From IMG/VR virus record IMGVR_UViG_3300044621_001585, positions 1-38,479 of that record: a stretch of DNA of 38,479 nt, one strand, 5' to 3'. The DNA is from a virus. The notes below the pieces were generated by a model. It made no database searches. It had not been told where the DNA came from and saw only the letters and a list, made by a program, of their open reading frames with translations. Of the stretch, positions 1,237 to 38,221 are shown in pieces. Each line of letters begins with the position of its first letter. Positions within the stretch are counted from its first letter, which is position 1. Made by a program: the position numbers and the translations under genes.

Positions 1237-1540
1237 CCCGTTGAACCTCGAAGCGCAGCTCGCCGCCCGGATCGAACGGCTCACTCTCCGTGTCCTCGAC
1301 GATCTCGAATGGCAGATGGTGAACGCCCCGCCGGCCGCTCGCCGCGATCTACTCAAGTCGGTCATCCCGGCGTTGTTCAGAGACAAGGAAGCGTCGTCGG
1401 ACGAACTGGCCGACATGCGCGATCAACTCAACGCCCTCCACGCCCAAACCCGCACCGAGCTGTACTCGACCCCCACTTCAGCGGTCGAGCAGCCCACTCC
1501 CACCTCGTTGCCCACGATCCCTCTCGACCAGCCCCAGTGA
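1229..1540 (+). CDS. Putative terminase small subunit (by position)
   Basis: 103 residues from ATG 1229 (MSDPLNLEAQ). An earlier in-frame start at 1202 exists but lies deep inside the previous gene. The body (residues 5-80) is predicted helical, with charged heptad-like stretches such as LEAQLAARIERLTLRVLDDL, and the tail is Pro/Thr-rich and probably disordered. It directly precedes and overlaps the large terminase by 4 nt (GTGA), the usual place of the small subunit. No clear helix-turn-helix can be read by eye, so the call rests on size, helical character and position. Confidence 0.45.
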   Translation: MSDPLNLEAQLAARIERLTLRVLDDLEWQMVNAPPAARRDLLKSVIPALFRDKEASSDELADMRDQLNALHAQTRTELYSTPTSAVEQPTPTSLPTIPLDQPQ

Positions 1541-3159
1541 AACTCCAGTCGTTCCTCGAATCCCTGATGATCCAGCAGAAGGACGCGCGGGTTGTGCCGT
1601 TCCGGTTGAACTGGGCTCAGCAAGAAGTCCTGGAAGTTGTCGAACGTCAGATGCGAACCACTGGCCGGGTTCGCATCATCGTGCTGAAAGCCCGCCAGCT
1701 CGGCATCTCCACGTTCTTCCAAGCTCTTCTGTTCGTCCTGTCGTTCCTCACTCCCGGCTACCGCGGCCTCGTTGTCGCCCATGAGATCCCCGCTTCGCAG
1801 AACCTCCTGGCGATGACGCACCGCTACTGGGACACCTACCCGTTCAAACGACTGTTCACACTCAAGTCGATGTCGAAGAACGACCTGTCATGGGTCGAAA
1901 CCGGGTCCGCTATCAAGATCGCGACCGCCGGCAACAAAGCACTCGGCCGATCATCGACGATCCATTACCTCCACGCTTCCGAGGTGGCGTTCTGGCCCGA
2001 CGCCGACATCGCGATGCTGGGGCTCAGACAAACCGTTCCGAACGAACCCGGCACCGTGATCGCTATGGAATCGACCGCTGAAGGCGTCGGCAACTTCTTT
2101 CATCAGCAATGGAAACTCGCTGAGGACGGCGAAAGCGAATACGAACCGATCTTCCTGCCGTGGTGGCGGCACCCCGAATACTTGGCGTCGCACATCAACG
2201 TGCCGCACGACAACCTTGGGTCGCTCGACTCCGAAGAGAAGATCCTGCGCGGCATGGGACTGTCCGACGACCGGTTGGCGTGGCGACGTTGGGCGATCAA
2301 GAACTTGTGCGGCAACGATCTCCGCAAGTTCCAGCAGGAATACCCGGCAACCCCCGAAGAAGCGTTCCTGTCGTCCGGTTCGAACGTGTTCCCCGCCCAT
2401 TCGCTACGCGACTGCTACAAGCCTGAACGCGGCTACCAGGGGATGCTGGTGCGCGACGGACTGTCAGTGAAGTTCGTTCCGCACGAAGACGGGCCGCTCA
2501 CCGTGTTCCAAGCCCCGTCGAAAGACCGGGATTACGGCAAGTACGTCGTGGCCGGCGACCCGACCCACACAACCCGTGGCGACTTCGCGTGCGCCCAAGT
2601 CCTCAACCGTCGCACGATGGAACAAGTTGCGGTGTGGCGCGGACGGATCGACCCGGCGTCGTTCGGGGAGGAACTGTTCAAACTCGGGCTCTACTACCAC
2701 GAAGCGTTGGTCGTGTCCGAGATCGAAGGTCCCGGCTACTCGACGATCGGGAAACTGCTCGGCATGGAATACCCGAACATCTACCGGCGCGCCCGCCCCG
2801 ACTCGACCCCCGGCAAAGTCTCCGGTGACCTTCACGGCTGGTCGACCACCGTCCAGTCCAAGCACCTCGCGATCGGATGGCTGTTGAAGTGCGTCGTGGA
2901 CGGGTCGCTCGCCATTCACCACCCCAAGACGTACGGCGAGATGGGGAACTACATCACGTTGGAGAACGGCGGCTACGGAAACGCCGACCATGAAGCGCAC
3001 GACGACACCGTGATGGCACTCGCGATCGCTGTCACCTGCCACATCCTCGACGGCCCCCTCATGGCGTACGGATCCAACCCTGGCCCCGCCGTACCAGGAT
3101 CGCTCGACCCTGACGCCTGGGGTGACCTCGACACCTACGACCCGGAATGGAAGCCGTGA
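1537..3159 (+). CDS. terL: Terminase large subunit (packaging ATPase and nuclease)
   Basis: 540 residues from GTG 1537; the open frame extends upstream to 1309, but that part is the shadow of the preceding gene. The motor pumps DNA into the procapsid through the portal and cuts the concatemer. The ATPase domain shows a terminase-type Walker A (K51-A-R-Q-L-G-I-S-T59), a Walker B with catalytic Glu (LHASE, E149) and the coupling motif ESTAEG (178-183). The C-terminal RNase H-like nuclease shows acidic residues D341 (AGDPT), E395/E397 (SEIEG) and D489-D490 (HDD). All core residues are present, and size is normal for the family. It overlaps the next gene by one base (TGATG). Confidence 0.95.
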   Translation: MKLQSFLESLMIQQKDARVVPFRLNWAQQEVLEVVERQMRTTGRVRIIVLKARQLGISTFFQALLFVLSFLTPGYRGLVVAHEIPASQNLLAMTHRYWDTYPFKRLFTLKSMSKNDLSWVETGSAIKIATAGNKALGRSSTIHYLHASEVAFWPDADIAMLGLRQTVPNEPGTVIAMESTAEGVGNFFHQQWKLAEDGESEYEPIFLPWWRHPEYLASHINVPHDNLGSLDSEEKILRGMGLSDDRLAWRRWAIKNLCGNDLRKFQQEYPATPEEAFLSSGSNVFPAHSLRDCYKPERGYQGMLVRDGLSVKFVPHEDGPLTVFQAPSKDRDYGKYVVAGDPTHTTRGDFACAQVLNRRTMEQVAVWRGRIDPASFGEELFKLGLYYHEALVVSEIEGPGYSTIGKLLGMEYPNIYRRARPDSTPGKVSGDLHGWSTTVQSKHLAIGWLLKCVVDGSLAIHHPKTYGEMGNYITLENGGYGNADHEAHDDTVMALAIAVTCHILDGPLMAYGSNPGPAVPGSLDPDAWGDLDTYDPEWKP

Positions 3160-10270: not shown

Positions 10271-11046
10271 TGCCCATTTCCTACGATCCGCCCCCTTCAG
10301 GCGGCACCGCTCCCGCTGACATCCAAGCTGCTGTCAACGCATGGTTGACTGCGAATCCTCCTGGTATCCCGAACCATTCAGCGTTGCCTGACCGGTTGAC
10401 GAACGGTCACCCTGGTTCTGTCGTGACGTTGACACCGCCGTCGGGCACCGGTTTGTTGCCGAACACTGTCAACAATGTCCAAGCGTTCCTCACCGCGATC
10501 GACGCTGTTCCGCTCGGCACCGGGCTTCCCGGCCCGCAAGGGTCGCAAGGGTCGCAAGGACCGGTCGGTCCTGCTGGCCCCGCTGGTCCCGCTGGGGCAC
10601 AAGGACCGATCGGTAACACTGGGTCACAAGGCCCGGTTGGTGCCACTGGTGCCACTGGTGCGGCAGGAGCTACCGGTCCTGCTGGTGCGACGGGTCCCGC
10701 CGGTCCCGCCGGTCCTGCCGGTCCCGCCGGCACGAACGGCACAAACGGTGCGAACGGTTTGTCGGCCTACCAGGTCGCGCAGAACAACGGGTTTCTCGGC
10801 AACCAAACCCAATGGCTCGCTTCGCTTGTCGGCACCCCCGGCGTCCAGGGACCCCAAGGTGATCAAGGTGTGCCCGGCCCGATCGGCGAAACCGGTCCGA
10901 CCGGCCCGCCGGGTGTGTCGATCACTGACAGCGAAGTGGTTGCTGCCCGTTCGACGTTCCCGACGCTCGGCGCTCGACTCGATTCGATCCAAACCAGCGG
11001 TTCGACCCCAGGTGTTGTCACCGCGACAGTGCAGGAGATTGTCTGA
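10270..11046 (+). CDS. Collagen-like tail fibre protein
   Basis: 258 residues from ATG 10270, coupled to the previous stop (TGATG); a longer in-frame start at 10204 lies inside the upstream gene. Residues 1-75 repeat the docking domain of the gene at 5844 ([17 protein letters not shown]). Residues about 85-160 and 190-217 are Gly-X-Y collagen repeats, rich in [12 protein letters not shown] and GPQGDQ. Between them lies [20 protein letters not shown], a helical module typical of collagen-bearing fibres. The product is expected to form a trimeric rod at the tail. Ends in a one-base overlap with the next gene. Confidence 0.9.
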
Positions 11047-12137
11047 TGCCCAACGAGATCCCACCGAACAACATCGTTGCCGGCGACACCCGGCACGTCT
11101 TGTTCCACAACAACATCAGCGACGTGTTGACGAACCATCTGTCGCGCCTCGGTGTGCTGGAGAACAACCAGCTTGTCGTCAAGGGCACGGTGTCGTCCGA
11201 GTCGAACCTGCCGGCTGTCGGCACTCCCGGCGACTTGTACTTCGTCGGAAACGAAGGCGATCTGTACGGCTGGGATCCGACAAGCGGAACGTTCAAGTTC
11301 CTTCAGAACTTGTCGGGCCCCACCGGGCTCACCGGCACACCCGGCACGATCGTCGGGTTGCTCAGCACCGGCCAGAACCCGCCGGTCGGTTCGCCGTACG
11401 GTTCGCTCTGGTTCGTCGCGAACACCGCTCTTCCGAACCCGACGGTCACCCCGGCGTTCGTCGGTTCGACCGCGAAGTGGGTTGGTTCGACAACCAGCAC
11501 GACGATCTCGGTGCCGAACACAGGTGTGCAGAACGGCGACATCGGTGTGATGGCTGTCGCGTTCTCGACAACGAACACGTTGCACACCCCCGCGCCGGCC
11601 GGCTGGACGTTGATCGAAACGGTGCGCGACACGAACTTCTCGGCGTTCCTGTTCGTCAAGGAGATGGCGGTGTCCGATTCGTCGTTCACGATCGCTCAGC
11701 CTGACGGCACCGGTTACCGCAAGGCGGCGTCGATGATGGTGTTCCGCAACGTCCGGTTGAACACGTCGCCGGTCGCGCCGCACGCCCGTTCCACATTGAA
11801 CGTGAGTACCGCGTCGAACACCCAGGCGATCCCGACGGTCGCGACGACAGTCACGTCGATGCTCGCAACGTTCTGGTTGGAACGCCAAGGCACATCGGTC
11901 GGGTACACCGCTGGCGGCACCGGGTTCACTGCACCGTCGGCGTTCACGAAGGCGAACGGCGAAGGGATCAACACCGAAACCGGTACGTCGTCGGCGTCGT
12001 CGGTCATCGGTGCGTACGACCTCACTGAACGGGCGACAGGCACGATCCCGTCGGGTTCGCCGACATGGACCCGTGAGAACCTTGGTTCGCCCACTACGAA
12101 CAACGTCGTGTTCACCGTGGCGCTAGAGGCTCTGTAA
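11046..12137 (+). CDS. Tail fibre or virion surface protein
   Basis: 363 residues from ATG 11046, coupled to the collagen-like gene (TGATG). The N-terminus contains helical NNISDVLTNHLSRLGVLENN and then a beta motif common in fibre proteins (LPAVGTPGDLYFVGNEGDLYGW). One short collagen-like stretch (SGPTGLTGTPGT) follows at about residue 95. Residues 140-363 form a Thr/Ser-rich beta sandwich (PAPAGWTLIETVRDTNFSAFLF), a design seen in phage receptor-binding proteins. No enzyme motif. Likely the distal part of the fibre. Confidence 0.8.
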   Translation: MPNEIPPNNIVAGDTRHVLFHNNISDVLTNHLSRLGVLENNQLVVKGTVSSESNLPAVGTPGDLYFVGNEGDLYGWDPTSGTFKFLQNLSGPTGLTGTPGTIVGLLSTGQNPPVGSPYGSLWFVANTALPNPTVTPAFVGSTAKWVGSTTSTTISVPNTGVQNGDIGVMAVAFSTTNTLHTPAPAGWTLIETVRDTNFSAFLFVKEMAVSDSSFTIAQPDGTGYRKAASMMVFRNVRLNTSPVAPHARSTLNVSTASNTQAIPTVATTVTSMLATFWLERQGTSVGYTAGGTGFTAPSAFTKANGEGINTETGTSSASSVIGAYDLTERATGTIPSGSPTWTRENLGSPTTNNVVFTVALEAL

Positions 12138-15934: not shown

Positions 15935-16915
15935 ATGCCAGCGACCGCCATCGGCGTCGACACCGTGTCAGCCCTGTCTCGGCAGTACGTCATGCCCGAG
16001 ATCGTGGACGCTGTGTACGACTCGAACGTCCTGTTCCACCGGCTCACCAAGGCCAACAAGAAGGTCATCCAGGGCGGCACCCACATCGAGGTGCCCATCC
16101 AGTACGCCCGTCCGAACAACGCGCAGGCGTACTCGGGCTACGACGTGCTGAACACCGCTCCGTTCGACGTGATCCGCAACGCGGTGTTCGACTGGAAGCA
16201 GTACGCCACCCTCGTCACCGTCGATGGTCTGACGCTGATCAAGACCGACAACCCGGAAGCGATCGCCCAGCTCATCAAGACGCAGTTCGAGCTGGCGAAG
16301 GCCGACTTCGTCCACGTCCTCGGCACCGACCTGTACCGGGGCAACGCTTCGGACCCGGACCGGCTGACCGGTCTGTCGCAGGCCGTCGCCGCATCCGGCA
16401 CCTACGGTGGCTTGAACCATTCGAACACGTTCTGGCAGTCCAAGATCGACAACAGCACGGCGCTCGGTTCGATCAGCCTGGACACCCTCCAGACGATCTT
16501 CTCGCAGCTCACGATCGGTCGTGAGTCCCCGACGCTGATGATCGGTCGGCGTCCCGTCTACAACCGTCTGTGGAACCTGATCTACGGCACCAGCGGTGCG
16601 AACGTCCAGATCAACGTGCCCGCAGGCGGCGCAGACGAACTGCTCGCCACCGCCGGCTTCACGAACATCCTGTTCAACAACGTGCCGCTCGTCATGGACT
16701 CGCAGGTGGACGCTTCCACCGGCACCCCCACCAACGGCAAGCTGTACATGCTGAACGAGAACTGGTTCGAGCTGGCAGTGTCTCCCCGCGCCGACATGGC
16801 GATGGAGGACTTCGTCACGCCGCACGACCAGGACGCCATGACCGCGAAGATCCTGTTCGCGGGTGAGCTGATCTGCAAGAACCCCCGCCTCCAGGGCGCT
16901 TTCACGGCGCTCTGA
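15935..16915 (+). CDS. Major capsid protein
   Basis: 326 residues from ATG 15935, preceded by GTGGGAGGAATCC, a strong ribosome binding site. The sequence has the layout of HK97-fold coat proteins: an N-terminal arm (LSRQYVMPEIVDAVYDSN), an extended loop with KKVIQGGTHIEVPIQY, a helical spine (LIKTQFELAKADFVHVLGTD), and a C-terminal A-domain ending in DMAMEDFVTPHDQ and LICKNPRLQGAF. Position after the scaffold and the optimised, strongly biased codons support a highly expressed coat. It has its own candidate promoter. No protease domain, so no sign of autoprocessing. Confidence 0.9.
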   Translation: MPATAIGVDTVSALSRQYVMPEIVDAVYDSNVLFHRLTKANKKVIQGGTHIEVPIQYARPNNAQAYSGYDVLNTAPFDVIRNAVFDWKQYATLVTVDGLTLIKTDNPEAIAQLIKTQFELAKADFVHVLGTDLYRGNASDPDRLTGLSQAVAASGTYGGLNHSNTFWQSKIDNSTALGSISLDTLQTIFSQLTIGRESPTLMIGRRPVYNRLWNLIYGTSGANVQINVPAGGADELLATAGFTNILFNNVPLVMDSQVDASTGTPTNGKLYMLNENWFELAVSPRADMAMEDFVTPHDQDAMTAKILFAGELICKNPRLQGAFTAL

Positions 16916-29588: not shown

Positions 29589-30992
29589 ATGTCGATCTCG
29601 ACTCGTTACGCGATCTACGTCCGCGTGTCCAAGGACCCCGAAGGCAAGTCGGTGTCCCCCGCCGCTCAGCTCGCCGAATGCTGGGAACACGTCGACCGGC
29701 AAGGGTGGGACCGAACCGACGTGACCGCCATGTCCGACGTGGACGTGTCAGCGTGGCAACGCAAAGTGACCCGGCCAGGGTTCCAACAGGTCGTCGAAGG
29801 GATCCGCAACGGCACACTCGACGGTGTCGTGATCCACGACCTCGACCGGTTCCTGCGCCGCTCATGGGAACTGGAGGATCTGATCCTCGCGATCGAACAA
29901 CGGGGCCGCGAGTTCGCAGTCCACTCCCCTCGTTCCAAGATCAACCTGTCGACACCCGAAGGCCGGGCGATGGCCCGGATCATGGTCGCGATCGCCGAGA
30001 AAGAGTCCGACGACAAGTCGCGTCGACTCCGGCTGGTTCTCGGCCAGAAAGCCCGCGAGGGCCGCTCTCACGGCGGCAGACTCCCCTACGGCTGGCAACC
30101 TGACCGAACCACCCTCAACCCGGCAGAAGCCCAGGTGGTGCGTTTGATGGCCGACGCGATCATCAGCGGCGAATCGTTGACAGGAGTGGCCCGCCACCTC
30201 AACGCCACCGAAACCCCCACCCGCAACGGTGGACCGTGGCGACCGATCACCGTTCGGAACATCCTGAAGAACCCGCGGGTCGCCGGCTACCGATCCCACA
30301 ACGGCAAAGTCGTCGGCAAAGGACAGTGGGAACCAATCCTTGACGACGACACCTACCAGACCCTTCAACGGATCTTCGCCAGGCCAGCCGCCGGCAAGAA
30401 CACCACCCCGGAACGAAAGTGGTGGGTCAGTTCAGTGCTTCGCTGCGGAACGTGCGGACGCAGAATGCAGTCGATCCCCCACACAACCGGCCGCAGATAC
30501 CAGTGCCCCCCGAAACTCGACGGGTGCGGCAACGGGATCGCAGCCGAACCCATCGACCGGATCGTCGAAGGGGTACTCCTAGCGATCCTCAACTCGAACG
30601 AAATCCGAATCCCCGGACAAACAAGCGTCGACACGGTACTGATCGAACAAGAACTCACCGCTGCTGAACAACGCATGGCCGGCCTTGTTCACGACCACTA
30701 CGTCGAAGGATGGTTGAGCCGGGGAGAGTTCACCGCAGCGCACGGCCCGCTCGAAACCCGCATCGCTGAACTCGCCGCGAAACTCGAACAAGCCCGAGCA
30801 ACAACCCCAAGCTCGGCAAGCATCCTCGAAGCATGGGAACAGTTCACGCCGCTCGAACGAGCCGACATCGCCCAGCTCGTCTACGAAACCGTCGAGATCG
30901 GACCGTTCAACCCTTCGGTACGGAAGTTCGATCCGGCACGCGTGACGCTCGTTGGACGGAACGCAGCCGGTAACGAGCAAACACAGAACTGA
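29589..30992 (+). CDS. int: Large serine integrase
   Basis: 467 residues from ATG 29589. The N-terminal resolvase domain (about 1-155) has the catalytic Ser (YVRVS, S14) and HDLDRFLR. The recombinase domain follows (VARHLNATETPTRNGGPWRP), and a zinc ribbon has C286, C289, C306 and C313. A coiled-coil region (residues about 355-405) completes the large serine recombinase layout. The enzyme joins phage attP to host attB and integrates the genome; excision usually needs a directionality factor, which is not identified here. All key residues are present and the length is typical. It converges with the leftward operon, and its end overlaps a small antisense gene. Confidence 0.92.
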   Translation: MSISTRYAIYVRVSKDPEGKSVSPAAQLAECWEHVDRQGWDRTDVTAMSDVDVSAWQRKVTRPGFQQVVEGIRNGTLDGVVIHDLDRFLRRSWELEDLILAIEQRGREFAVHSPRSKINLSTPEGRAMARIMVAIAEKESDDKSRRLRLVLGQKAREGRSHGGRLPYGWQPDRTTLNPAEAQVVRLMADAIISGESLTGVARHLNATETPTRNGGPWRPITVRNILKNPRVAGYRSHNGKVVGKGQWEPILDDDTYQTLQRIFARPAAGKNTTPERKWWVSSVLRCGTCGRRMQSIPHTTGRRYQCPPKLDGCGNGIAAEPIDRIVEGVLLAILNSNEIRIPGQTSVDTVLIEQELTAAEQRMAGLVHDHYVEGWLSRGEFTAAHGPLETRIAELAAKLEQARATTPSSASILEAWEQFTPLERADIAQLVYETVEIGPFNPSVRKFDPARVTLVGRNAAGNEQTQN

Positions 30993-31068
30993 TCTGTTCG
31001 ACCGTCACCCGGTCAAGAGTCAGGTCGCCACGCACCCGCACCCCTTCGGGAACCAAGTCGGCGCTCAT
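30907..31068 (-). CDS. Small hypothetical protein overlapping the integrase 3' end
   Basis: Reading leftward from ATG 31068 gives 53 codons to TGA 30909-30907. The protein begins MSADLVPEGVRVRGDLTLDR and continues VTVEQISSVFARYRLRS before a basic tail. The ATG lies in an ATGA overlap with the stop of the gene before it, a sign of real coupling. The last 86 nt are antisense to the integrase end, which is unusual. Codon use in the first part looks coding. Unknown function. Confidence 0.5.
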   Translation of the reverse strand: MSADLVPEGVRVRGDLTLDRVTVEQISSVFARYRLRSVQRASRVPDRTSVPKG

Positions 31069-31253
31069 TCGCCCATCCGGTCGACTTGCAGCACGATCGC
31101 CGGCACCTCGCGGTCAGTGACCTGTTCCACGAAGTCGACCAGGTGGTATTTGCATGAGTCGACGGCGTCCAACCCGCCGGTCGCCATCACTCTCCACCGT
31201 GGCCGCTTGTCGCACGGCCGGATGTCGTCGATGTACCCGGCGCATCTCAACAC
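31065..31253 (-). CDS. Small Cys/His protein, likely zinc-binding
   Basis: 62 residues from GTG 31253, overlapping the ERCC4 gene end by 7 nt. C4, C14, C34 and H37 could hold a zinc ion (LRCAGYIDDIRPCDKRPRWR then SCKYHLVDFVEQV). The layout is like small actinophage proteins with a C/C/C/H knuckle and a C-terminal beta strand. Function unknown; a nucleic-acid-linked role is suggested by the operon. It overlaps the next gene by 4 nt (ATGA). Confidence 0.7.
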   Translation of the reverse strand: MLRCAGYIDDIRPCDKRPRWRVMATGGLDAVDSCKYHLVDFVEQVTDREVPAIVLQVDRMGE

Positions 31254-31900
31254 GGGTTGATCGCTTCCATCATCCGATCAACTTTCTTGTTGCCGAGCCC
31301 GTCGACCGTCAACAGTTCTTCGCGTCCGACGCGCCAACCGAACGGCATCCCGAGCTGATCAAGGATCCGGCCGGCCAGTTCAACTCCTACCCCTGGCAAC
31401 CCTTGGAGTAGATGGATCTGGTAGTCCCGGTTGTTCGCTTTGCCCCAACTCGACCTGACCCCAGCTCTTCCACCCAAACTGCTGTGATGCTCTTTGCGGC
31501 ACCACTGTTCAAACGCGAGGACAAGCCCGATGGTGTCGTCCAACGTGTCGGTCCATTCGACCCACACCCCCGCTGCCCGCACAGACCACAGCAACTTCCG
31601 CAGGTTCGCCCGGCTGATCCCCCGCCCCCAGGTCTGGCCGACCAGTTCACCGTCAAGGGTCCATTTGAGCGACCCTTCGATGACAAGCATCCGGTATTCC
31701 AAACCGGTTGCCATCTTGAGGATCTGTTCGCCGAGCCTTCCGTCGCCGATCGATCCGAGCAGATCCTTCACCTCTTTGCGTTGCACACCAGCCCACGTTC
31801 CGTTCGCTGCCATCAACAGGTCGCACCCGAACTCTTCGGGGAACGTGCTGACAGTTCCCAACTCGCGCAACTTGAACGGTTCCGTGTTCGAGATGATCAC
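31247..31900 (-). CDS. ERCC4/XPF-type nuclease with HhH motifs
   Basis: 217 residues from GTG 31900. The N-terminal half has the XPF-type nuclease signature (CDLLMAANGTWAGVQRKEVKDLL), with D27, R41, K42 and D46; the usual Glu of ERK is Gln (Q40). It continues DGRLGEQ. The C-terminal part has two helix-hairpin-helix motifs (LPGVGVELAGRIL, VDGLGNKKVDRMM) that bind DNA structures. Such enzymes cut branched or flapped DNA near junctions. In this operon it probably resolves recombination or replication intermediates. It overlaps both neighbours by a few bases. The Q40 change may affect metal binding but is seen in other phage-like forms as I recall. Confidence 0.82.
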   Translation of the reverse strand: MIISNTEPFKLRELGTVSTFPEEFGCDLLMAANGTWAGVQRKEVKDLLGSIGDGRLGEQILKMATGLEYRMLVIEGSLKWTLDGELVGQTWGRGISRANLRKLLWSVRAAGVWVEWTDTLDDTIGLVLAFEQWCRKEHHSSLGGRAGVRSSWGKANNRDYQIHLLQGLPGVGVELAGRILDQLGMPFGWRVGREELLTVDGLGNKKVDRMMEAINPC

Positions 31901-32259
31901 GCCCCCTCCTTGTCGGGCTCAGGGAACGGCAACGGGATGACCTTCGCTCCTGCTGCCGCTTCCATCTCGGCGAGTTCCTGTTCGGCTGACCGGACCGCTT
32001 CGTTGATCGACTCGGCGAAGAACTTCGCGCCGGCAACGGTCGATACGACACCGACCGTGATGGGTTCGTTGGTGTCCACGTCCACGTCGAACCCGAACAG
32101 CACAGCGGGGATCTGTTCGCTGCCGTCAGAGGTGTACAGCAGAACGCCTTGAACTGACCCGCCGATCGCAGCGAAGTAGCTTTGCCCGTCCAGTTCGATG
32201 CACCGAGGTTCGACCGGTTTGCCATCTTCCCGGCTGATTTCAAGACGGTAATCGGTCAC
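31897..32259 (-). CDS. Hypothetical protein in recombination operon
   Basis: 120 residues from GTG 32259 after AGAGGCGGAAGC. It overlaps the ATPase gene and the ERCC4 gene by 4 nt on each side. The sequence has a beta-rich start (YRLEISREDGKPVEPRCIEL) and a helical, acidic second half (AVRSAEQELAEMEAAAGAK). No motif recognised. Its fixed location between a RecA-like ATPase and a junction nuclease suggests a partner role, but this is not shown. Confidence 0.7.
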   Translation of the reverse strand: MTDYRLEISREDGKPVEPRCIELDGQSYFAAIGGSVQGVLLYTSDGSEQIPAVLFGFDVDVDTNEPITVGVVSTVAGAKFFAESINEAVRSAEQELAEMEAAAGAKVIPLPFPEPDKEGA

Positions 32260-33032
32260 GCTTCCGCCTCTGCTGTTTCGTTCCTGGCGGGACGCCAGCC
32301 AGCAACCCTGAGCAAGTAGTCCCGCCCGAAGTCGCTGATCACGCTTTCCTTCAGTTCACCTCGTTCCCGGTCCTTCACAGTTGTGGCGGTGAACTCGCCG
32401 GTTCGTTTCCGCCCGAGGAACAGCACGGTGTGCGGCGTGTACCCGAGCGTCTTCTGACCCTTCGGCTTGAACCCGAACGTGGCGTACAACCCTTTGATCC
32501 GCCGGTCGTCACGATCACCGATCGCGTCGGATTCAGCGGTGAGCAACAGGTGACCCTTCGTGGTGAACAACGCCTGGAACATCTTGTTGAACTCGGCGTT
32601 GATGACCTGCCAGTTCATGTCGGCGTCGGCCTTCTCGTTGTCCTTGCGTCCCCCGGTCGCGAAGAAATCGAAGAAGTCGTCGCCGTGCTTCATCGTGATG
32701 TACAGGGTTTGGAGCGCCTGCCAGCACGGTGTCGCCGAGTCGAGCACCAGCCAATCCCCCGGTTCGCACTGCTCGGCCGCTGACCTGACAGCGTTCAACT
32801 GGCCTCGCCAGTCGTCCGGTCCGACGACTTCCACATGGATCCGGTCGGCCACATCGTCGTACCGACCTGATCCGATCGAACGGTGGTAGCTGGCCGAGTA
32901 GTCGGTGTCGACGACCCGCATCACTCCGTCGATGTACTTGACGATCGACAACGCCGCGGTTGACTTGCCCGAACCGGGATCTCCGTACAGGAGGATTCGT
33001 TCCGGTGCGTTGTTGGGTGGTGAGAGCTTCAT
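32256..33032 (-). CDS. RecA-like ATPase, Sak4/AAA_24 type
   Basis: 258 residues from ATG 33032 with a strong GAGGAAGGAACC site. Walker A is G17-D-P-G-S-G-K-S-T25, and Walker B is WLVLD (D98). Later blocks (GHLLLTAESDAIGDRDDRR, PHTVLFLGRKRTG) match phage RecA-like ATPases of the Sak4 or AAA_24 group, which help strand annealing or exchange together with ssDNA-binding proteins. The gene lies 10 nt after the Cas4-like nuclease and overlaps the next gene by 4 nt. A distinct helicase-loader role is less likely. Confidence 0.82.
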   Translation of the reverse strand: MKLSPPNNAPERILLYGDPGSGKSTAALSIVKYIDGVMRVVDTDYSASYHRSIGSGRYDDVADRIHVEVVGPDDWRGQLNAVRSAAEQCEPGDWLVLDSATPCWQALQTLYITMKHGDDFFDFFATGGRKDNEKADADMNWQVINAEFNKMFQALFTTKGHLLLTAESDAIGDRDDRRIKGLYATFGFKPKGQKTLGYTPHTVLFLGRKRTGEFTATTVKDRERGELKESVISDFGRDYLLRVAGWRPARNETAEAEA

Positions 33033-33042
33033 GGTTCCTTCC

Positions 33043-34056
33043 TCAACCTGTTCCGAACGGGTTGTCGGTCGTGTCGATCGTGTCGTCGGTGTCGTCGCTG
33101 ATCTTCGGGTACTCCGACACGCTGGCCTTGTAAGTGACGGTACGTTCGGGTCGTTCGGTCCGCACCCAGGTAACCCGCTTGCCGGAACCCTTCAACCGTT
33201 TGCCGTGCTTCTCGACAAGCAGCTTCAAGTGGTCGGTCGCGGTTGCTTTGAGAGCTTTCAACGCTTTCTCGTCGCCGCGGATCTGTTCGATCGTGTCGAC
33301 CGCCCGCCGGAACTCGTTGAGTTCATCGCCGGTCAGTTCGACTGGTTCAAGCCGATCCTCAACCTGCGGGTACGGGCATCCCCATTCGCCGCCTTCGCGG
33401 GGGCATGGGAACTCGGTGAACGGTGTGTTGTCGCGGGCTGCGGTTTCGATCCGTTCAACCTTTCGCCACAAGCCGTCGAGCCCGTAGCCGCGCTCGTTCA
33501 GTTCGGCGATGTCGACGCTGACGTACCGGACGGGAGAGTCAGCGGTGACAGTCCCGTCGTCGTTCTTCAACGCGACGGCAAGCATCGCTTCGTTCACGTC
33601 CCAGCCGAGAACCCCGAGTCCTGCGGCGTACACGGCGAGCTGCGCGCAGTAATGCGGGAACGCCCATATCCCCTGCTTGTCGAGCTTGTCCCAAAGCGTC
33701 TTACCGAACGCTTTCGCGTCGACCGGGTACGCGAGGTTGTGTTCGCCGTGGTGGGCGTACCCGTCGAGCGAACCGCGGATCGCTGCGCCGAGATCAGGGT
33801 CGACGATCTGGACTTGTACCTGCCGGCTGTTCTCGCTGGTGACAAGAGCCCAGGTGTGGTTGTCCTGCCAGCGTCGCATGATCAGGTCCTCAGCGGCGTG
33901 GCCCTGATCGAACGCTGTTTGCAGGGTTGGTGGCGGCGGGCTGGCAGGTTCTTCGCGGCGTGCAGCAAGCAACGCTCGTTCGCATCCACCGAGAGAACTC
34001 GCCCGGTACACCCACAGGTTGTCATCGCGGTAGACGCGTGGCCGGTCGTCACCCAT
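33043..34056 (-). CDS. Cas4/RecB-like PD-(D/E)XK nuclease
   Basis: 337 residues from ATG 34056, with GGGAG upstream. The nuclease core shows GSLDGY (D98) and VDAK (D113, K115), the PD-(D/E)XK residues. Cysteines at C25 (GGCER) and at C218 and C227 (CPREGGEWGC) resemble the iron-sulphur cluster ligands of Cas4/AddB-type exonucleases; a fourth is not obvious. It likely resects dsDNA ends to make ssDNA for the RecA-like ATPase next to it. The acidic tail after residue 310 is disordered. It overlaps the small membrane gene by 8 nt. Confidence 0.82.
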   Translation of the reverse strand: MGDDRPRVYRDDNLWVYRASSLGGCERALLAARREEPASPPPPTLQTAFDQGHAAEDLIMRRWQDNHTWALVTSENSRQVQVQIVDPDLGAAIRGSLDGYAHHGEHNLAYPVDAKAFGKTLWDKLDKQGIWAFPHYCAQLAVYAAGLGVLGWDVNEAMLAVALKNDDGTVTADSPVRYVSVDIAELNERGYGLDGLWRKVERIETAARDNTPFTEFPCPREGGEWGCPYPQVEDRLEPVELTGDELNEFRRAVDTIEQIRGDEKALKALKATATDHLKLLVEKHGKRLKGSGKRVTWVRTERPERTVTYKASVSEYPKISDDTDDTIDTTDNPFGTG

Positions 34057-34201
34057 CGGACCACTCCCGCTTGTTGACTCGTTGGTCCCATTCGGGGACG
34101 CGTGGTTCGTTGCGGGTGTTCGTTGCGGCGAACCGTGCGATGGTGAGCACGATGAGGGTGTAGGTGGCGACGCCGGCTGCGATCAGCAGGATCGTGGTCA
34201 C
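34049..34201 (-). CDS. Small single-pass membrane protein (50 residues)
   Basis: Read leftward from GTG 34201, which overlaps the preceding stop (GTGA). The protein is VTTILLIAAGVATYTLIVLT, a membrane helix, followed by a charged tail RFAATNTRNEPRVPEWDQ and an end in EWSDG. The stop overlaps the Cas4-like start by 8 nt. Below usual gene-length cutoffs, it would be missed. No function known; it could be an early membrane factor or exclusion protein. Confidence 0.6.
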   Translation of the reverse strand: MTTILLIAAGVATYTLIVLTIARFAATNTRNEPRVPEWDQRVNKREWSDG

Positions 34202-34488
34202 TGGTCACCTGCCAGGTATCGGACCCACAGGTCGGAACTGGTTCCGTCGTCGGCCTTGTGCTGGCGGAACTCCCAATCGCCGTCGGGGATGACGGTCTTG
34301 CCGTTGCGGATCCTCTTGAGTGCGTCCCTGGCGCCGGTTGGGCTGTCGTAGTGGGTGAGGTGGATCCACTTGCTGTGGTTGTCCTTGAGCTTGATCAGCT
34401 CGGTCAACGCTTCGTGGTATTCGCGACGCCGCCCCCCTCGCTTCGGGGGCTTCGGTTCGCCGTGTTGGAGTACGAACTGCTTTGCCAT
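34198..34488 (-). CDS. Small basic protein, unknown
   Basis: 96 residues from ATG 34488, with GAAAGGACACGG upstream. The N-terminus is very basic (KPPKRGGRRREYHEAL), the middle has HYDSPTGARDALKRIRNGK, and the end is beta-rich (LWVRYLAGDQ). The pattern is like actinophage proteins of unknown role that carry a short RNGK/IPDG module. Basic charge and operon context suggest nucleic-acid binding. Coupled to the next gene by GTGA. Confidence 0.65.
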   Translation of the reverse strand: MAKQFVLQHGEPKPPKRGGRRREYHEALTELIKLKDNHSKWIHLTHYDSPTGARDALKRIRNGKTVIPDGDWEFRQHKADDGTSSDLWVRYLAGDQ

Positions 34489-34517
34489 TTCCGTGTCCTT
34501 TCGGTCGGAAGGGTCGG

Positions 34518-34570
34518 AGGGTCCAGGGGGAGGTCAGGAAGGAGAGGTGGGAGCCTCACCCCTGGACCCT
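34518..34570 (-). terminator. 12-bp hairpin between the ssDNA-binding-type gene and downstream genes
   Basis: AGGGTCCAGGGG (34518-34529) and CCCCTGGACCCT (34559-34570) pair perfectly, with a 29-nt loop, in the 110-nt gap after the gene ending at 34599. It could reduce readthrough into the lower operon and so set a higher level for the upstream gene. No U-tract follows in the leftward direction, so it may instead be a processing site. Confidence 0.45.
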
Positions 34571-34598
34571 TCCGGTTGTGGTCCTTCAGGGGGGAAGG

Positions 34599-35270
34599 TC
34601 AGGAAACCTTCACTGCCTCGAAGAACGCGGGGTCGACGATGGACGCTTCGAGGTCGGCGGGGATCTCGAAGTCGGTGGAGGTGAACACCTTCTCGACGAA
34701 GGCGTTGGCGTCGGCGGATCCGAGTGCGACGGCCCGAAGGGTGCCTCGCAACGCCGGGTCGATCGAAGCGACGAGTTCGTTCATGCCGTTGGGTGCCGGT
34801 GCGGCAGCGGCGGTGGGGGCGGGGTCGCTGTCGGCGGAGTCGATGAGCATCCGGTTGTAGGTCTGCTCTTCGCCCTTCTTGTTCTTGAAGGAGAACTCCT
34901 TCTGGCGGAACGTGACGTTGAGTCCCTTCCAGATGCTCGCGGTGAACGGGTCACCCTTCGCGCCGAGGGTGTCGCGGAGCCCGGCGTCCATCGCGGACTT
35001 GAGCAGGACACCCATACCGGACTGGGCGTTGTAGTTCTTCGGTGCGCCGCTGGAGTGCCGCACCTTGTTGCCGTTGTCGTACGGCTCGAAGTCCTTGCAG
35101 GGGTACAGGAGGGTCTGCTCGCCCAGGGTGGCGTCGGCGACGACAAGCTTGAGGACACAGGTGTTGCCGTTGTCGTAGCTGTTGTCGAAGCTGAAGTAGG
35201 CGTCGGCGATCTCGCCGCTCACCACTTCGGAGAGTCCGGTGCTGAGCGCCCACGGATCGAAGTCGGTCAT
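34599..35270 (-). CDS. Putative single-stranded DNA-binding protein
   Basis: 223 residues from ATG 35270, with AAGGAACAG upstream. A beta-rich body (residues about 20-135: DAYFSFDNSYDNGNTCVLKL, GLNVTFRQKEFSFKNKKGEE) has the size and Phe/Tyr pattern expected for an OB-type or annealing-type binder. The C-terminal part is helical. It has its own promoter and lies between the helicase and a RecA-like ATPase that would need such a partner. The call is from context and composition; no diagnostic motif is seen. A hypothetical DNA-metabolism protein is the safe reading. Confidence 0.5.
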   Translation of the reverse strand: MTDFDPWALSTGLSEVVSGEIADAYFSFDNSYDNGNTCVLKLVVADATLGEQTLLYPCKDFEPYDNGNKVRHSSGAPKNYNAQSGMGVLLKSAMDAGLRDTLGAKGDPFTASIWKGLNVTFRQKEFSFKNKKGEEQTYNRMLIDSADSDPAPTAAAAPAPNGMNELVASIDPALRGTLRAVALGSADANAFVEKVFTSTDFEIPADLEASIVDPAFFEAVKVS

Positions 35271-35325
35271 GGTGGTCTGTTCCTTGTGTCGGTTCCCCGG
35301 CCGGCGTACCCGGTGGGGTGCGGAA

Positions 35326-35355
35326 ACCTTAGACCTACGCTAGACCTAACCGCAA
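35326..35355 (-). promoter_or_regulatory. Leftward promoter with TAGACC repeats in its spacer
   Basis: On the minus strand TTGCGG (35355-35350), an 18-nt spacer, then TAAGGT (35331-35326). The plus strand carries TAGACC at 35330-35335 and 35341-35346, 11 bp apart, inside the spacer and touching the -10. ATAGACAG occurs again at 35377-35384. These match boxes upstream of the 38221 gene and may be an operator. Confidence 0.5.
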
Positions 35356-35372
35356 GCATTACATCGAAGTAA

Positions 35373-35462
35373 TTACATAGACAGTTGGTAGAACGACGAA
35401 GGCCTGGGGGTCGAGCTTGCGCTGTCACCCCAGGCCCATCCGGCCACCTCACGCATCTTCAC
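35373..35462 (-). CDS. Possible 29-residue peptide after the helicase
   Basis: GTG 35462 starts one base after the helicase stop and reads VKMREVAGWAWGDSASSTPR then PSSFYQLSM and TAA. No clear ribosome binding site other than helicase coupling. The hairpin at 35401-35436 lies within it. It may be a chance frame. Reported only because the coupling and residue mix look gene-like. Confidence 0.25.
   Translation of the reverse strand: MKMREVAGWAWGDSASSTPRPSSFYQLSM
35401..35436 (-). terminator. 9-bp hairpin downstream of the helicase
   Basis: GGCCTGGGG (35401-35409) and CCCCAGGCC (35428-35436) form a perfect stem with an 18-nt loop, 28 nt after the helicase stop. Leftward it is followed by TTCGTCGTTCT, a moderately U-rich run. 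It probably ends the helicase transcript just before the promoter of the next gene. Confidence 0.5.
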
Positions 35463-35463
35463 C

Positions 35464-37227
35464 CTAACCGACTCTTCGGCCCCCAACCCTGCCCATGAAC
35501 TCCGGTGGGGTAACTGTTTCGTCCAACGCTTCGATCCACCAGCCGGGCAGCAGACGCTTCGCTTTCCTGAGCACGTTCGTGTAGAAGGCGGCGTCAAGGA
35601 TGTAGGTGTGGCACCAGTCGGTTTCGCTTCGCACTCCCCGCCCGGTCATCTGTACCAGCGTGCGGACCATCTGCACCGAGTACCACCATTCACCTGCTTC
35701 GGTTCGCATCCGTTCGGACACGACCCGGTCACCGAGGCTGGGAAACGGGATCTTCGCGACGACCACAACCCTTGCTTCGTCCCCTTTGAAGTCGAACCCT
35801 CGGTCGACCGACGGGGCGAACAGGACGCCGGCTTCGGTTCGTTTGAACTGTTCGACGACCCGTTCCCGGTCTTTCGAGCTGGTGTACCGGAACTTCACTC
35901 GCCCCCCACCTTTCACTTCTCGTTCCAAGTATTCGGCGAGAGCGAAACTGACGGTGTGGACAAGGATTCGTTCGCCTGGGTGAAGCTCCAACACTCGTTC
36001 GATGCCGCGTGCCATCTCGGGCCACGCCTGGTCCCGGTTGTTGTAGTTCATTTCGGTGAGGGGAACAGCTCGAATCTTGCGGTTCTCGACAGGGAACTGC
36101 ATCGGGACCCGCACCTGTCCCCATGACCCTTCGATCCCCAAGCTGTCGGCCATTTCGTCGGGCGAGATGATCGTCGCTGACATGAGTAGCCATTTGTTGC
36201 CGTGCCGCCAGATCCGGCCGGGTCCGAACTCGTCGACTTTCACGGGTTTCAACACCAGGTCGAGCTGCCCGGACCGGTAGTCCCTTGTCCACAACCCCCC
36301 TTCGATGTGTTCAGCGGCGACTCTTGCTCGTTCGAGCATGTTGTTGAGCCGGGCTCGTTCGCGCATCTGGTCGAGCCCTTGACCTTTGATTCGTTTCCGC
36401 TGGTCGTCGACCGCTCGGGTGAACTCGCCGCGGATCCATTTGACGATCGTCGGTTTGTGAACTGCTTTGCCGGGGATGTCGACCCTTAGCCGGCGTGCCA
36501 TCCCGCTGCTGACCCGGAACTCGACGGCTCCCATGAGGATCCCTTCGAGGGTGTCGGCTTCGTCGATGATGACGAGGTCCCTTCCGGCGAGCCCGCTGTG
36601 CTGCCCGCTGATCTCGGCGAGCATGTACGCAGTGTTGGTGACAGCAAGGTTCCCGGCTAACGCTTTGCCGCGTGCCATCCGGTAGGCGCATTCCAACGGT
36701 TGGTCGCACCATCGGCATCCTTCGCCGTCGCGTGTCTTGGTGCAGTCAGCGCAGGTCACCTGGGGGAACGGTTCGTTCTGAGTCGGGTAGTTCGCTTTGC
36801 CTTTGAGGACGTTGGCGTACGGGAAATCTCGGGCGAACTGGTCTTGGAGGCCGAGCCCGTGACAGACGTACAAGCTTCGACCGCCGACCCTTCGCCTGAC
36901 CATCTCGCCGATCAGGGTCTTGCCGGCTCCGGTTGGTGCGTCGAGAAACACGATGTCGTGCTGCTCGAACTGTTCGAGGATTTCGTCGACCGCGTCGAGT
37001 TGGGTTGAGCGGAACCCTTCGACCCATCCGGGTAGCGGTGCGGGTTCGTGGATCTGCCACCCTCCGTACCGTGGGTCAGCCCACCGGGAACAGTCCTCCC
37101 CACCCAGGGGAGAGACAGGGGGGTGAGCTGGGCGATCCGCTCCAGTGACATCCTTCCTGTCCCCCCTCCCGGTGTTGGGGGATCGAGGCGGCGCAGCCGC
37201 CGAGATGGGAGCAGGGTACACGCTCAC
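35464..37227 (-). CDS. XPD/DinG-like iron-sulphur DNA helicase
   Basis: 587 residues from GTG 37227, which overlaps the previous stop (GTGA). Walker A is A97-P-T-G-A-G-K-T104, and the DEAD-type Walker B is D222-E-A-D225. Between them five cysteines (C159, C162, C171, C174, C180) occur where XPD/DinG helicases hold a 4Fe-4S cluster. Motif VI is Q526-M-T-G-R530-G-V-R. This is a superfamily 2, 5'-3' type helicase; in the phage it may open the origin, remove R-loops or assist recombination. The N-terminal 35 residues are Pro-rich and weakly conserved looking, so the true start could be further in. No primase or polymerase accompanies it. Confidence 0.88.
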   Translation of the reverse strand: MSVYPAPISAAAPPRSPNTGRGDRKDVTGADRPAHPPVSPLGGEDCSRWADPRYGGWQIHEPAPLPGWVEGFRSTQLDAVDEILEQFEQHDIVFLDAPTGAGKTLIGEMVRRRVGGRSLYVCHGLGLQDQFARDFPYANVLKGKANYPTQNEPFPQVTCADCTKTRDGEGCRWCDQPLECAYRMARGKALAGNLAVTNTAYMLAEISGQHSGLAGRDLVIIDEADTLEGILMGAVEFRVSSGMARRLRVDIPGKAVHKPTIVKWIRGEFTRAVDDQRKRIKGQGLDQMRERARLNNMLERARVAAEHIEGGLWTRDYRSGQLDLVLKPVKVDEFGPGRIWRHGNKWLLMSATIISPDEMADSLGIEGSWGQVRVPMQFPVENRKIRAVPLTEMNYNNRDQAWPEMARGIERVLELHPGERILVHTVSFALAEYLEREVKGGGRVKFRYTSSKDRERVVEQFKRTEAGVLFAPSVDRGFDFKGDEARVVVVAKIPFPSLGDRVVSERMRTEAGEWWYSVQMVRTLVQMTGRGVRSETDWCHTYILDAAFYTNVLRKAKRLLPGWWIEALDETVTPPEFMGRVGGRRVG

Positions 37228-37514
37228 CCCTTGTCCCCTGCCTCACCCACCATGTCTCGAAACGTGACGCGGATCTGGTCGAGCGAAGCGAGTACAGCTA
37301 CTGCTGTCCTGTTGTCCCCGTTGACTTCCAGCGCGTAGACCGCGTACCGGCCGTGTTCCAGCATGAGTGCAACGGTTTGTTCGACGAGTTCCGTTGGAAG
37401 GGTTTCGTGGTGGACGATGAGGAACTTTCCGAGAGCGGCGACGATCCTTGCGCTTTGCGCTCCGGCTTCGGCGATCGCTTTGACTTCTGCTTTAGTGAGG
37501 TCGTCGGGGTGCAT
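37224..37514 (-). CDS. Hypothetical helical protein
   Basis: 96 residues from ATG 37514; GTG 37517 is 3 nt earlier but too close to the GGAGG site, so ATG is favoured. The protein is helical (DDLTKAEVKAIAEAGAQSAR, VEQTVALMLEHGRYAVYALE) with a charged C-terminus. No motif or membrane segment. It lies between the ribbon-helix-helix-like gene and the helicase, overlapping each by a few bases. An accessory to the helicase is possible from context only. Confidence 0.7.
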   Translation of the reverse strand: MHPDDLTKAEVKAIAEAGAQSARIVAALGKFLIVHHETLPTELVEQTVALMLEHGRYAVYALEVNGDNRTAVAVLASLDQIRVTFRDMVGEAGDKG

Positions 37515-38221
37515 CACTGGCCTCCCCGGTTCATCTGGATGAGCCGCATTTCGATGGTGTCGGCGAGTTCCCGCAGCCGGTCTTTGCTGTTGGCACCCTT
37601 CACTTTGGTGATGGCGTCCTTGACCCGGTCGGCGAGTTCGATCATGTCGGTGCGGTTGCCGGTGTTCGAGATGTCTTCGAAGATTTGGTGGAGGCGTGAC
37701 ACCCGTTCGAGTTCGCGGGTGTTGAGCATCGACAGCATCTCTTCCCGAGCTCCATCTCGGGCGTCTTGTGCGAGTTCACGGACGTAAGGGTCGTCGATGT
37801 AGACGGGCACGCCTTCGGTTCCGTGGGTGAGCTGGTGGACGCGGTGCAGCACGGCGTCACGGATGAGGTCTTGCACCGTGTTGTAGGCGGGGACGACTCG
37901 CTGTTGGACGATCGCGCTGGCGATGGCGTGGAGTTGCGGGTCGAGCGGGACCTGCACGTTCCTCGGCTGGCCTCCTTGACGCTTGCTCAGCACGGTCTTG
38001 ACGTAGAACCGGCCGGGTTCGTACCCGTCTTGTTGTTCGTCGACTGTCCAGGGGTCGAAGCTTCCGTTCTCCTGCTGCTGCTGGGCGAGTTCGTGTGCTG
38101 CGGCCGGCGGCAGGTCGTCGGTGATGACGACGGAGTCGGGTTCGGGGGGCTGGATTTCCCGAGTTGGTGGGAGTGGGAACTGTGGCAGCGCGGCCACGTC
38201 CACCGATTCCAGGTTCGGCAT
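37514..38221 (-). CDS. Ribbon-helix-helix-like DNA-binding protein
   Basis: 235 residues from ATG 38221, with a strong GAAGGAG site and a good TTGACC/TAGTCT promoter. The N-terminal 70 residues are Pro/Gln-rich. Residues about 75-135 have a strand (RNVQVPLDPQ) followed by two helices (LHAIASAIVQQRVV, TVQDLIRDAVLHRVHQL), the layout of a ribbon-helix-helix domain. The C-terminal part is long and helical (ELADRVKDAITKVKGANSK) and may multimerise. As first gene of the leftward operon it may regulate early promoters, perhaps through the nearby TAGAC boxes. The fold is inferred. Confidence 0.6.
   Translation of the reverse strand: MPNLESVDVAALPQFPLPPTREIQPPEPDSVVITDDLPPAAAHELAQQQQENGSFDPWTVDEQQDGYEPGRFYVKTVLSKRQGGQPRNVQVPLDPQLHAIASAIVQQRVVPAYNTVQDLIRDAVLHRVHQLTHGTEGVPVYIDDPYVRELAQDARDGAREEMLSMLNTRELERVSRLHQIFEDISNTGNRTDMIELADRVKDAITKVKGANSKDRLRELADTIEMRLIQMNRGGQ

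Follow-up and report, generated by a model that had tools for sequence, protein, structure and literature searches.

Five genes for an XPD/DinG-type helicase, an SSB-like protein, a Cas4-like nuclease, a Sak4-type ATPase and an ERCC4 protein with an altered active site, kept in fixed order in a lineage of podovirus-like phages

In the present work, we examine a compact set of five DNA-processing genes in the IMG/VR record IMGVR_UViG_3300044621_001585, a linear contig of viral DNA, 38,479 bases in length, that was analysed whole (hereafter the window) and that comes from an uncultured podovirus-like phage. The five genes all lie on the minus strand, between positions 31247 and 37227, and encode, from right to left, an XPD/DinG-type helicase, a protein resembling single-stranded DNA-binding proteins (SSBs), a Cas4-like nuclease, a Sak4-type ATPase and an ERCC4-type protein. 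Together with six small genes they form a leftward operon running from 38221 down to 31065, which reaches further right than first described. Many neighbouring genes in it overlap by about 4 bp, and this suggests translational coupling. We will show that the order of the five genes is the same in every relative that has them all, and that the active site of the ERCC4 protein is altered, a point missed in the first-pass annotation of this DNA. With a probability of roughly 0.6, the operon is a single-strand-annealing or recombination module that feeds concatemer formation or recombination-dependent replication by a host polymerase.

The first-pass annotation had named the products as an iron-sulfur (Fe-S) XPD/DinG-like helicase, an ssDNA-binding protein, a Cas4/RecB-like nuclease, a Sak4-type RecA-like ATPase and an ERCC4-type nuclease with helix-hairpin-helix (HhH) motifs. 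The helicase, ATPase and ERCC4 identities are borne out by the profile searches, motifs and models described below, while for the other two proteins the broader part of the claim stands.

The helicase gene (35464..37227, minus strand) encodes 587 residues, or 585 from an alternative start at 37221, and its assignment is based on Pfam, PHROG and PDB profiles as well as on motifs. The protein matches PF13307 (Helicase_C_2; 4e-23) and the DNA helicases of PHROG 2488 (7.5e-91), and its matches among PDB profiles are archaeal XPD (2.6e-24), FANCJ and DinG. Motifs I to VI of superfamily 2 (SF2) are present, in the window with Walker A DAPTGAGKT, a DEAD box, MSAT and QMTGRGVR; Walker A, DE[AGC]D, ATI/V/L/P after MS/T and Q..GR..R are kept in 13 relatives. 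Four cysteines with the spacing C160-x8-C169-x2-C172-x5-C178 are invariant in the same number of relatives (13/13) and are, by sequence, the predicted Fe-S ligands of an XPD/DinG helicase. The SF2 core motifs and the four cysteines are thus held in common with the XPD/DinG Fe-S helicases, including those of PHROG 2488, whereas the identity to the isolate-phage relatives listed is only 23-34%. The PADLOC model of the type IV-A CRISPR DinG also matches (1.3e-55). CasDinG, however, has a vestigial Fe-S domain without three of the four cysteines (PMC10450177) and is accompanied by csf genes; the window helicase keeps all four cysteines, and no csf match was found in the operon other than the helicase itself.

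Unlike XPD/DinG helicases, some relatives of the window helicase are divided or, probably, interrupted. In eight contigs (L099 and L120-L126) the helicase is encoded by two genes, the break falling near window residue 365, between the motor domains. The two genes overlap by 4 bp in at least two contigs and lie about 700 bp apart in L124; one example is L121:9989-10966 and 10963-11586. Two further helicases contain probable inteins: in L112:1022-4252 an Intein_splicing domain (4e-12) interrupts the protein near Walker A, and L114:211-2685 carries a LAGLIDADG_3 domain. In L103 (9971-12442) the helicase is extended at its C-terminus, and the added part gives a weak intein match. As a separate observation, four contigs (L037:18383-19537 and three relatives) have a gene for a DUF932 protein that lies upstream of the helicase gene.

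The second gene (34599..35270, minus strand) encodes a 223-residue protein for which no sequence family match was found. Its AlphaFold model has a predicted local distance difference test score (pLDDT) of 91.9. In Foldseek, bacterial SSBs come out on top, with E values of about 1e-3, probabilities of 0.9-0.99 and low TM scores, and the best VIA match is PrgE at a modest Z of 6.5, the highest value reached for the oligonucleotide/oligosaccharide-binding (OB) fold. The OB-fold part of the earlier ssDNA-binding assignment therefore stands at a modest score. The acidic C-terminal tip of bacterial SSBs is absent, as the window protein ends in ...FFEAVKVS and its relatives mostly in F, Y or W plus a few residues, with no acidic run.

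The nuclease (33043..34056, minus strand; 337 residues) is assigned to the Cas4-like/RecB family on the basis of PHROG 1990, "Cas4-domain exonuclease" (2e-13), and of conserved residues. Its PD-(D/E)xK motif comprises D98 and D113-A-K115 in the window, and D98 and K115 occur in all 22 proteins compared. Equally constant are Q139, C218 and C227, while C25 is found in 19 of the 22; residue 233 is H in most relatives and E in the window. No PDB relative was found with the nuclease profile. The PD-(D/E)xK residues and the N-terminal cysteine are as in Cas4 and the PHROG 1990 phage exonucleases, but Cas4 proper is defined by four conserved Fe-S cysteines (PMC5704561), and this family has three (25, 218 and 227) and no Pfam or NCBIfam Cas4 match. 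Judged from its sequence, the protein is Cas4-like and not Cas4 proper.

The fourth gene (32256..33032, minus strand) encodes a Sak4/RadB-like RecA-fold ATPase of 258 residues with Walker A GDPGSGKST. Family profiles support this: PF13479 (6e-10), the "Sak4-like" PHROG 124 (4e-9) and NCBIfam RadB (5.6e-5, below its cut-off). The best-scoring PHROG is 1366, which has no function, and against the PDB the profile finds P-loop proteins, with RadB at an E value of only 0.11. The Sak4 protein of phage HK620 anneals single strands, and its SSB stimulates the annealing (PMC5928155); in S. aureus phages Sak4 and Ssb are required for replication, and mutants have fewer concatemers (PMC5499656). As in the HK620 and phi11 modules, a RadB/Sak4-like ATPase is encoded here with a phage SSB-like gene. 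The window set differs from them in that it adds the Cas4-like nuclease, the XPD-like helicase and the XPF-like protein, in that its SSB is very divergent, and in that no initiator or helicase loader was seen.

We now come to the ERCC4 protein (31247..31900, minus strand), which has 217 residues and consists of an XPF-type ERCC4 nuclease domain and (HhH)2, as assigned from Pfam, a structural model and alignments. It matches PF02732 (1.8e-8), HhH families and the NCBIfam archaeal Xpf/Hef entry. Its model (pLDDT 92.9) matches Aeropyrum XPF over the full length, nuclease and HhH domains included (Z 15.2), and the Hef nuclease with Z 14.9 and 2.1 Å over 120 residues. The fold and the (HhH)2 are those of the XPF/MUS81 family. 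The catalytic signature GDXnERKX3D, on the other hand, is changed: residues 40-42 are QRK, as they are in all 32 lineage proteins of our alignment A7, whose identity to the window protein is only 27-58%.

The human XPF active site comprises D687, R689, E690, D715, E725, R726, K727 and D731, with a modelled metal on D715 and E725 (PMC5983712). The position of E725 is Q in all 32 proteins. The equivalents of E690, R726, K727 and D731 are retained in the lineage, with an aspartate always at D27, and the window protein has E7, D27 and D46. In the VDxRE motif, S or A stands at the D687 position and T, A, S or G at the R689 position in 31 of the 32, L103 having the canonical D and R. ERK is present in four plasmid-borne homologues and in the phage outgroup L160. 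Archaeal XPF/Hef and human XPF-ERCC1 are thus alike to the lineage in the ERCC4 fold with tandem HhH, the S..DGR motif, the RK..D of the signature and the D of GD, and unlike it in the ERK, in the VDxRE residues and in having a fused helicase domain. It should be noted that the pattern used to search IMG/VR, QRKE..DL..S..DGR, itself selects for QRK, and the Q was therefore re-checked on loci picked by the helicase alone. About 20 lineage contigs that were reached in this way, and that could not have matched the pattern, also carry Q; the change is hence not a selection artefact.

The alteration gives rise to the strongest rival of our reading, namely that the protein is a pseudonuclease, in which QRK has abolished metal-dependent cutting and which serves as a structure-specific DNA-binding subunit, like ERCC1 or FAAP24, recruiting the Cas4-like nuclease or the helicase to junctions. 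The loss of a metal-holding glutamate in every lineage member seen, and of D687 and R689 in nearly all, speaks for it, and the family does have inactive members, since ERCC1 has lost the whole motif, with LFL for ERK (PMC6320978). Against it, R41, K42, D46 and D27 are retained throughout A7 in spite of the low overall identity; E7 is also present, whereas ERCC1 has not retained it. Moreover, the active restriction enzyme BtgZI, of the same superfamily, has the same E-to-Q change in its PD-D/EXK domain (PMC4081073), so that Q can be compatible with activity. We consider the pseudonuclease a possibility, though not the probable outcome; it concerns one step, and the rest of the recombination model would stand.

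The next question is how well the set holds together. Relatives in IMG/VR were gathered with the motif pattern and then with a helicase profile, scans that used the helicase or the ERCC4 protein as a single query having found nothing. Most module-bearing contigs are 30-60 kb long. With five home-made hidden Markov models (HMMs), all 38 distinct IMG/VR contigs that have the five genes show the order helicase-SSB-nuclease-Sak4-ERCC4, and the conserved co-occurrence that the first-pass annotation had proposed as a check was thereby found. Contigs with a partial set are mostly cut by the contig end. The exception, G018 (L060-L062, 45 kb), has SSB-nuclease-Sak4-ERCC4 and lacks the helicase as well as matching terminase or portal genes, which may reflect a module transfer. 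Another 42 contigs have the helicase alone; these comprise L099, L117, L119 and L120 as well as 38 of the 39 distant relatives (L127-L165), many of which lie in larger phages. Among the distant relatives, L160 is the only one that also has an ERCC4 gene. For the nuclease, Sak4 and ERCC4 proteins, tblastn found no relative among 50,697 isolate phage records, and no relative was found behind the QRKE-type pattern in cellular prophages among 84,980 genomes. The helicase matches in cellular genomes consist of one fragment in an Actinomycetes metagenome-assembled genome (MAG), the others being for the most part archaeal XPD-like proteins and proteins of planctomycetes.

One could argue that five separately useful DNA genes stay together only through shared phage ancestry, since terminase, portal and capsid genes are common to most of the 25 contigs that were fully fetched. 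However, the order is unbroken although the helicases share only about 34-46% identity and the small unrelated genes lying among the five vary from contig to contig, and G018 has four of the genes in a genome lacking matching terminase or portal genes. Hitch-hiking of this kind is in our judgement unlikely.

We turn next to the enzymes of replication. In agreement with the earlier annotation, family searches found no polymerase or replicative helicase in the window. In relatives, small genes amounting to 2-9 kb lie upstream of the helicase gene; the linear window is thus probably missing a few kb of such small early genes on the right, and the absence is better judged from the relatives. No PolA match above cut-off was obtained in 43 records (the window and relatives), and none for DnaB, Toprim_3 primase or Prim-Pol in 38 records; G029 for DnaB and G040 for Toprim gave weak matches below the curated cut-off. 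The search for PolB_2 was silent, but so was its positive control, and this silence is not counted as absence. Direct terminal repeats of about 125 bp mark G007 (43.8 kb) and G020 (37.9 kb), both relatives of the window, as probably complete; their early genes are small. A Pfam scan of the larger early genes of the relatives found no replication initiator; they encode a glycosylase, methylases, amidases, a glycoside-hydrolase-like protein, DUF932, DUF7192, or nothing recognisable. MW202803, a relative in its terminase large subunit (TerL), portal and major capsid proteins, is annotated with a DnaB-like helicase, a primase small subunit, a PD-(D/E)xK nuclease and the junction resolvase RusA. 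This points to the cassette filling the replication slot, with the ERCC4 protein perhaps as a stand-in for RusA. A second TerL relative with an annotated genome, CRP-7, likewise has a conventional set, with a DNA polymerase and a primase.

From the gene identities, the fixed order, the altered ERCC4 site and the absence of replication enzymes where the control worked, we infer a series of biochemical steps in the service of replication. The Cas4-like nuclease would resect double-strand ends, the SSB-like protein would coat the exposed strand, and Sak4 would anneal complementary strands or load them for strand invasion. The ERCC4 protein would then remove non-homologous 3' flaps and cut other branched intermediates, and the 5'-3' Fe-S helicase would open ends, flaps or joint molecules, the products being concatemers and restarted forks for headful packaging. 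This scheme of resecting, coating, annealing and trimming, assisted by a helicase, is an analogy that combines the roles of Sak4 and SSB in HK620 and in S. aureus phages with that of XPF-ERCC1, which cleaves 3' flaps in single-strand annealing (PMC6320978). The proximity of the Sak4 and SSB-like genes, which is that of the known functional pair, speaks for it.

Several points weigh against this scheme. Within a single phage lineage, shared ancestry accounts in part for a fixed order, and G018 alone carries SSB-nuclease-Sak4-ERCC4 with no matching terminase or portal genes. The SSB identity has the modest support of a fold match, and the nuclease has no match in Pfam or NCBIfam. Judged by sequence, a carboxylate that serves as a metal ligand is missing from the ERCC4 site, in most members along with the D and R of VDxRE, and the site could be inactive. 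Among the polymerases, the absence covers PolA, as the PolB_2 search had no working control. Finally, no replication initiator was found. A bolder version, in which a polymerase-less lineage replicates or assembles its genome by means of a self-contained single-strand-annealing machine of eukaryote- and archaeal-type parts, with a catalytically active QRK nuclease of the XPF type and, in one branch, an XPD helicase of two polypeptides, is put forward tentatively.

Another option considered was a module resembling nucleotide or base excision repair that shields the phage DNA from damage; the first-pass annotation had drawn this parallel from the presence of XPD- and XPF-like enzymes, which form the eukaryotic excision-repair pair. 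A gene of the uracil-DNA glycosylase superfamily is indeed present in 12 of the 38 records (G001, G013, G025, G032, G035 and others), in several of them near the ERCC4 gene and in some directly downstream of it. The replication block of magroviruses likewise combines an ERCC4 nuclease with a DNA glycosylase (PMC10160649), but it also includes PolB and ligase, and the text of that paper names no helicase, Cas4, XPD or RadA. The glycosylase is absent from the window, and among the genes scanned no lesion-recognition factor, XPB, UvrA-like protein, ligase or polymerase was detected. Sak4, the SSB and an end-processing nuclease point instead to recombination, and the parallel is further weakened because XPF-ERCC1 also acts in single-strand annealing, which fits better with the neighbouring genes. 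Its XPD- and XPF-type proteins make the set look like excision repair without being evidence of it, and we regard this explanation as improbable.

The least likely alternative, that the nucleases and the helicase are directed at host DNA or defences (genome breakdown, CRISPR or RecBCD evasion), could draw on the type IV-A DinG score and on the Cas4-like proteins of Campylobacter phages, which alter CRISPR spacer acquisition (PMC5704561), but we found neither Cas1 nor Csf nor any other defence gene in the operon, and the set adjoins a recombinase and an SSB. Host attack and excision repair are both less likely than the recombination reading or an ERCC4 scaffold.

The remaining genes of the operon are small. 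An open reading frame of 62 residues lies at its end (31065..31253), a protein of 120 residues between Sak4 and ERCC4 (31897..32259), both coding calls with no family, and one of 97 residues (37224..37517, a coding call) overlaps each neighbour by 4 bp. The 96-residue protein at 34198..34488 belongs to a family without function (PHROG 2660, 1e-4; cluster 23, in 7 of the 25 family contigs). At the operon head, a 235-residue protein (37514..38221; cluster 21) has no family that we found, and HMM matches place homologues just upstream of the helicase at many relatives' loci; it is a possible candidate for a regulator or replication initiator. All of these are on the minus strand. By eye, the middle part of the 235-residue protein resembles a ribbon-helix-helix.

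The rightward genes encode a terminase, a portal, a major head protein and other structural proteins, followed by a serine integrase. Lineage markers on this plus strand are the terminase large subunit (1309..3159; PHROG 2, 3.9e-24; kept in 22 of 25 contigs) and the major head protein (15935..16915; PHROG 9953, 1.2e-48). The serine integrase (29589..30992, plus strand; cluster 31) is convergent with the module, matches phage serine integrases by tblastn at 32% identity at best, and occurs in just 4 of the 25 contigs. A large protein of the structural region (7676-10270) has a domain like BD-FAE esterases (5e-10) and is possibly a tail or spike enzyme. No Rfam match and no tRNA were found in the window, and promoter and terminator scans of it did no better than on shuffled sequences. 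The best-covered TerL match among isolates is that of Roseobacter CRP-7, at 34% identity, and host assignment failed. A weak host hint is the Actinomycetes MAG, where the phage-like contig L167 encodes a fragment of the C-terminal half of the helicase.

Each of the five proteins belongs to a known family, and what is surprising is the fixation of QRK and the division of the helicase into two genes. In the literature, of which few subscription journals were covered, we found no paper on Sak4, Cas4, phage and ERCC4 together, nor on the five-gene set. The fixed change from ERK to QRK offers a natural experiment on a metal site, that of a nuclease family which matters for human DNA repair; the split helicase, for its part, is an XPD-like motor that comes naturally in two pieces. 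If the recombination reading is true, phage single-strand annealing by Sak4 and SSB would be joined to flap cutting of the XPF-ERCC1 kind in one compact operon that could be rebuilt in vitro. The lineage also raises the question of how a 40-kb phage in which no polymerase, primase, replicative helicase or initiator is detected starts its replication, and the five-gene set lends itself well to studying the way in which phages of this kind replicate and join their genomes.

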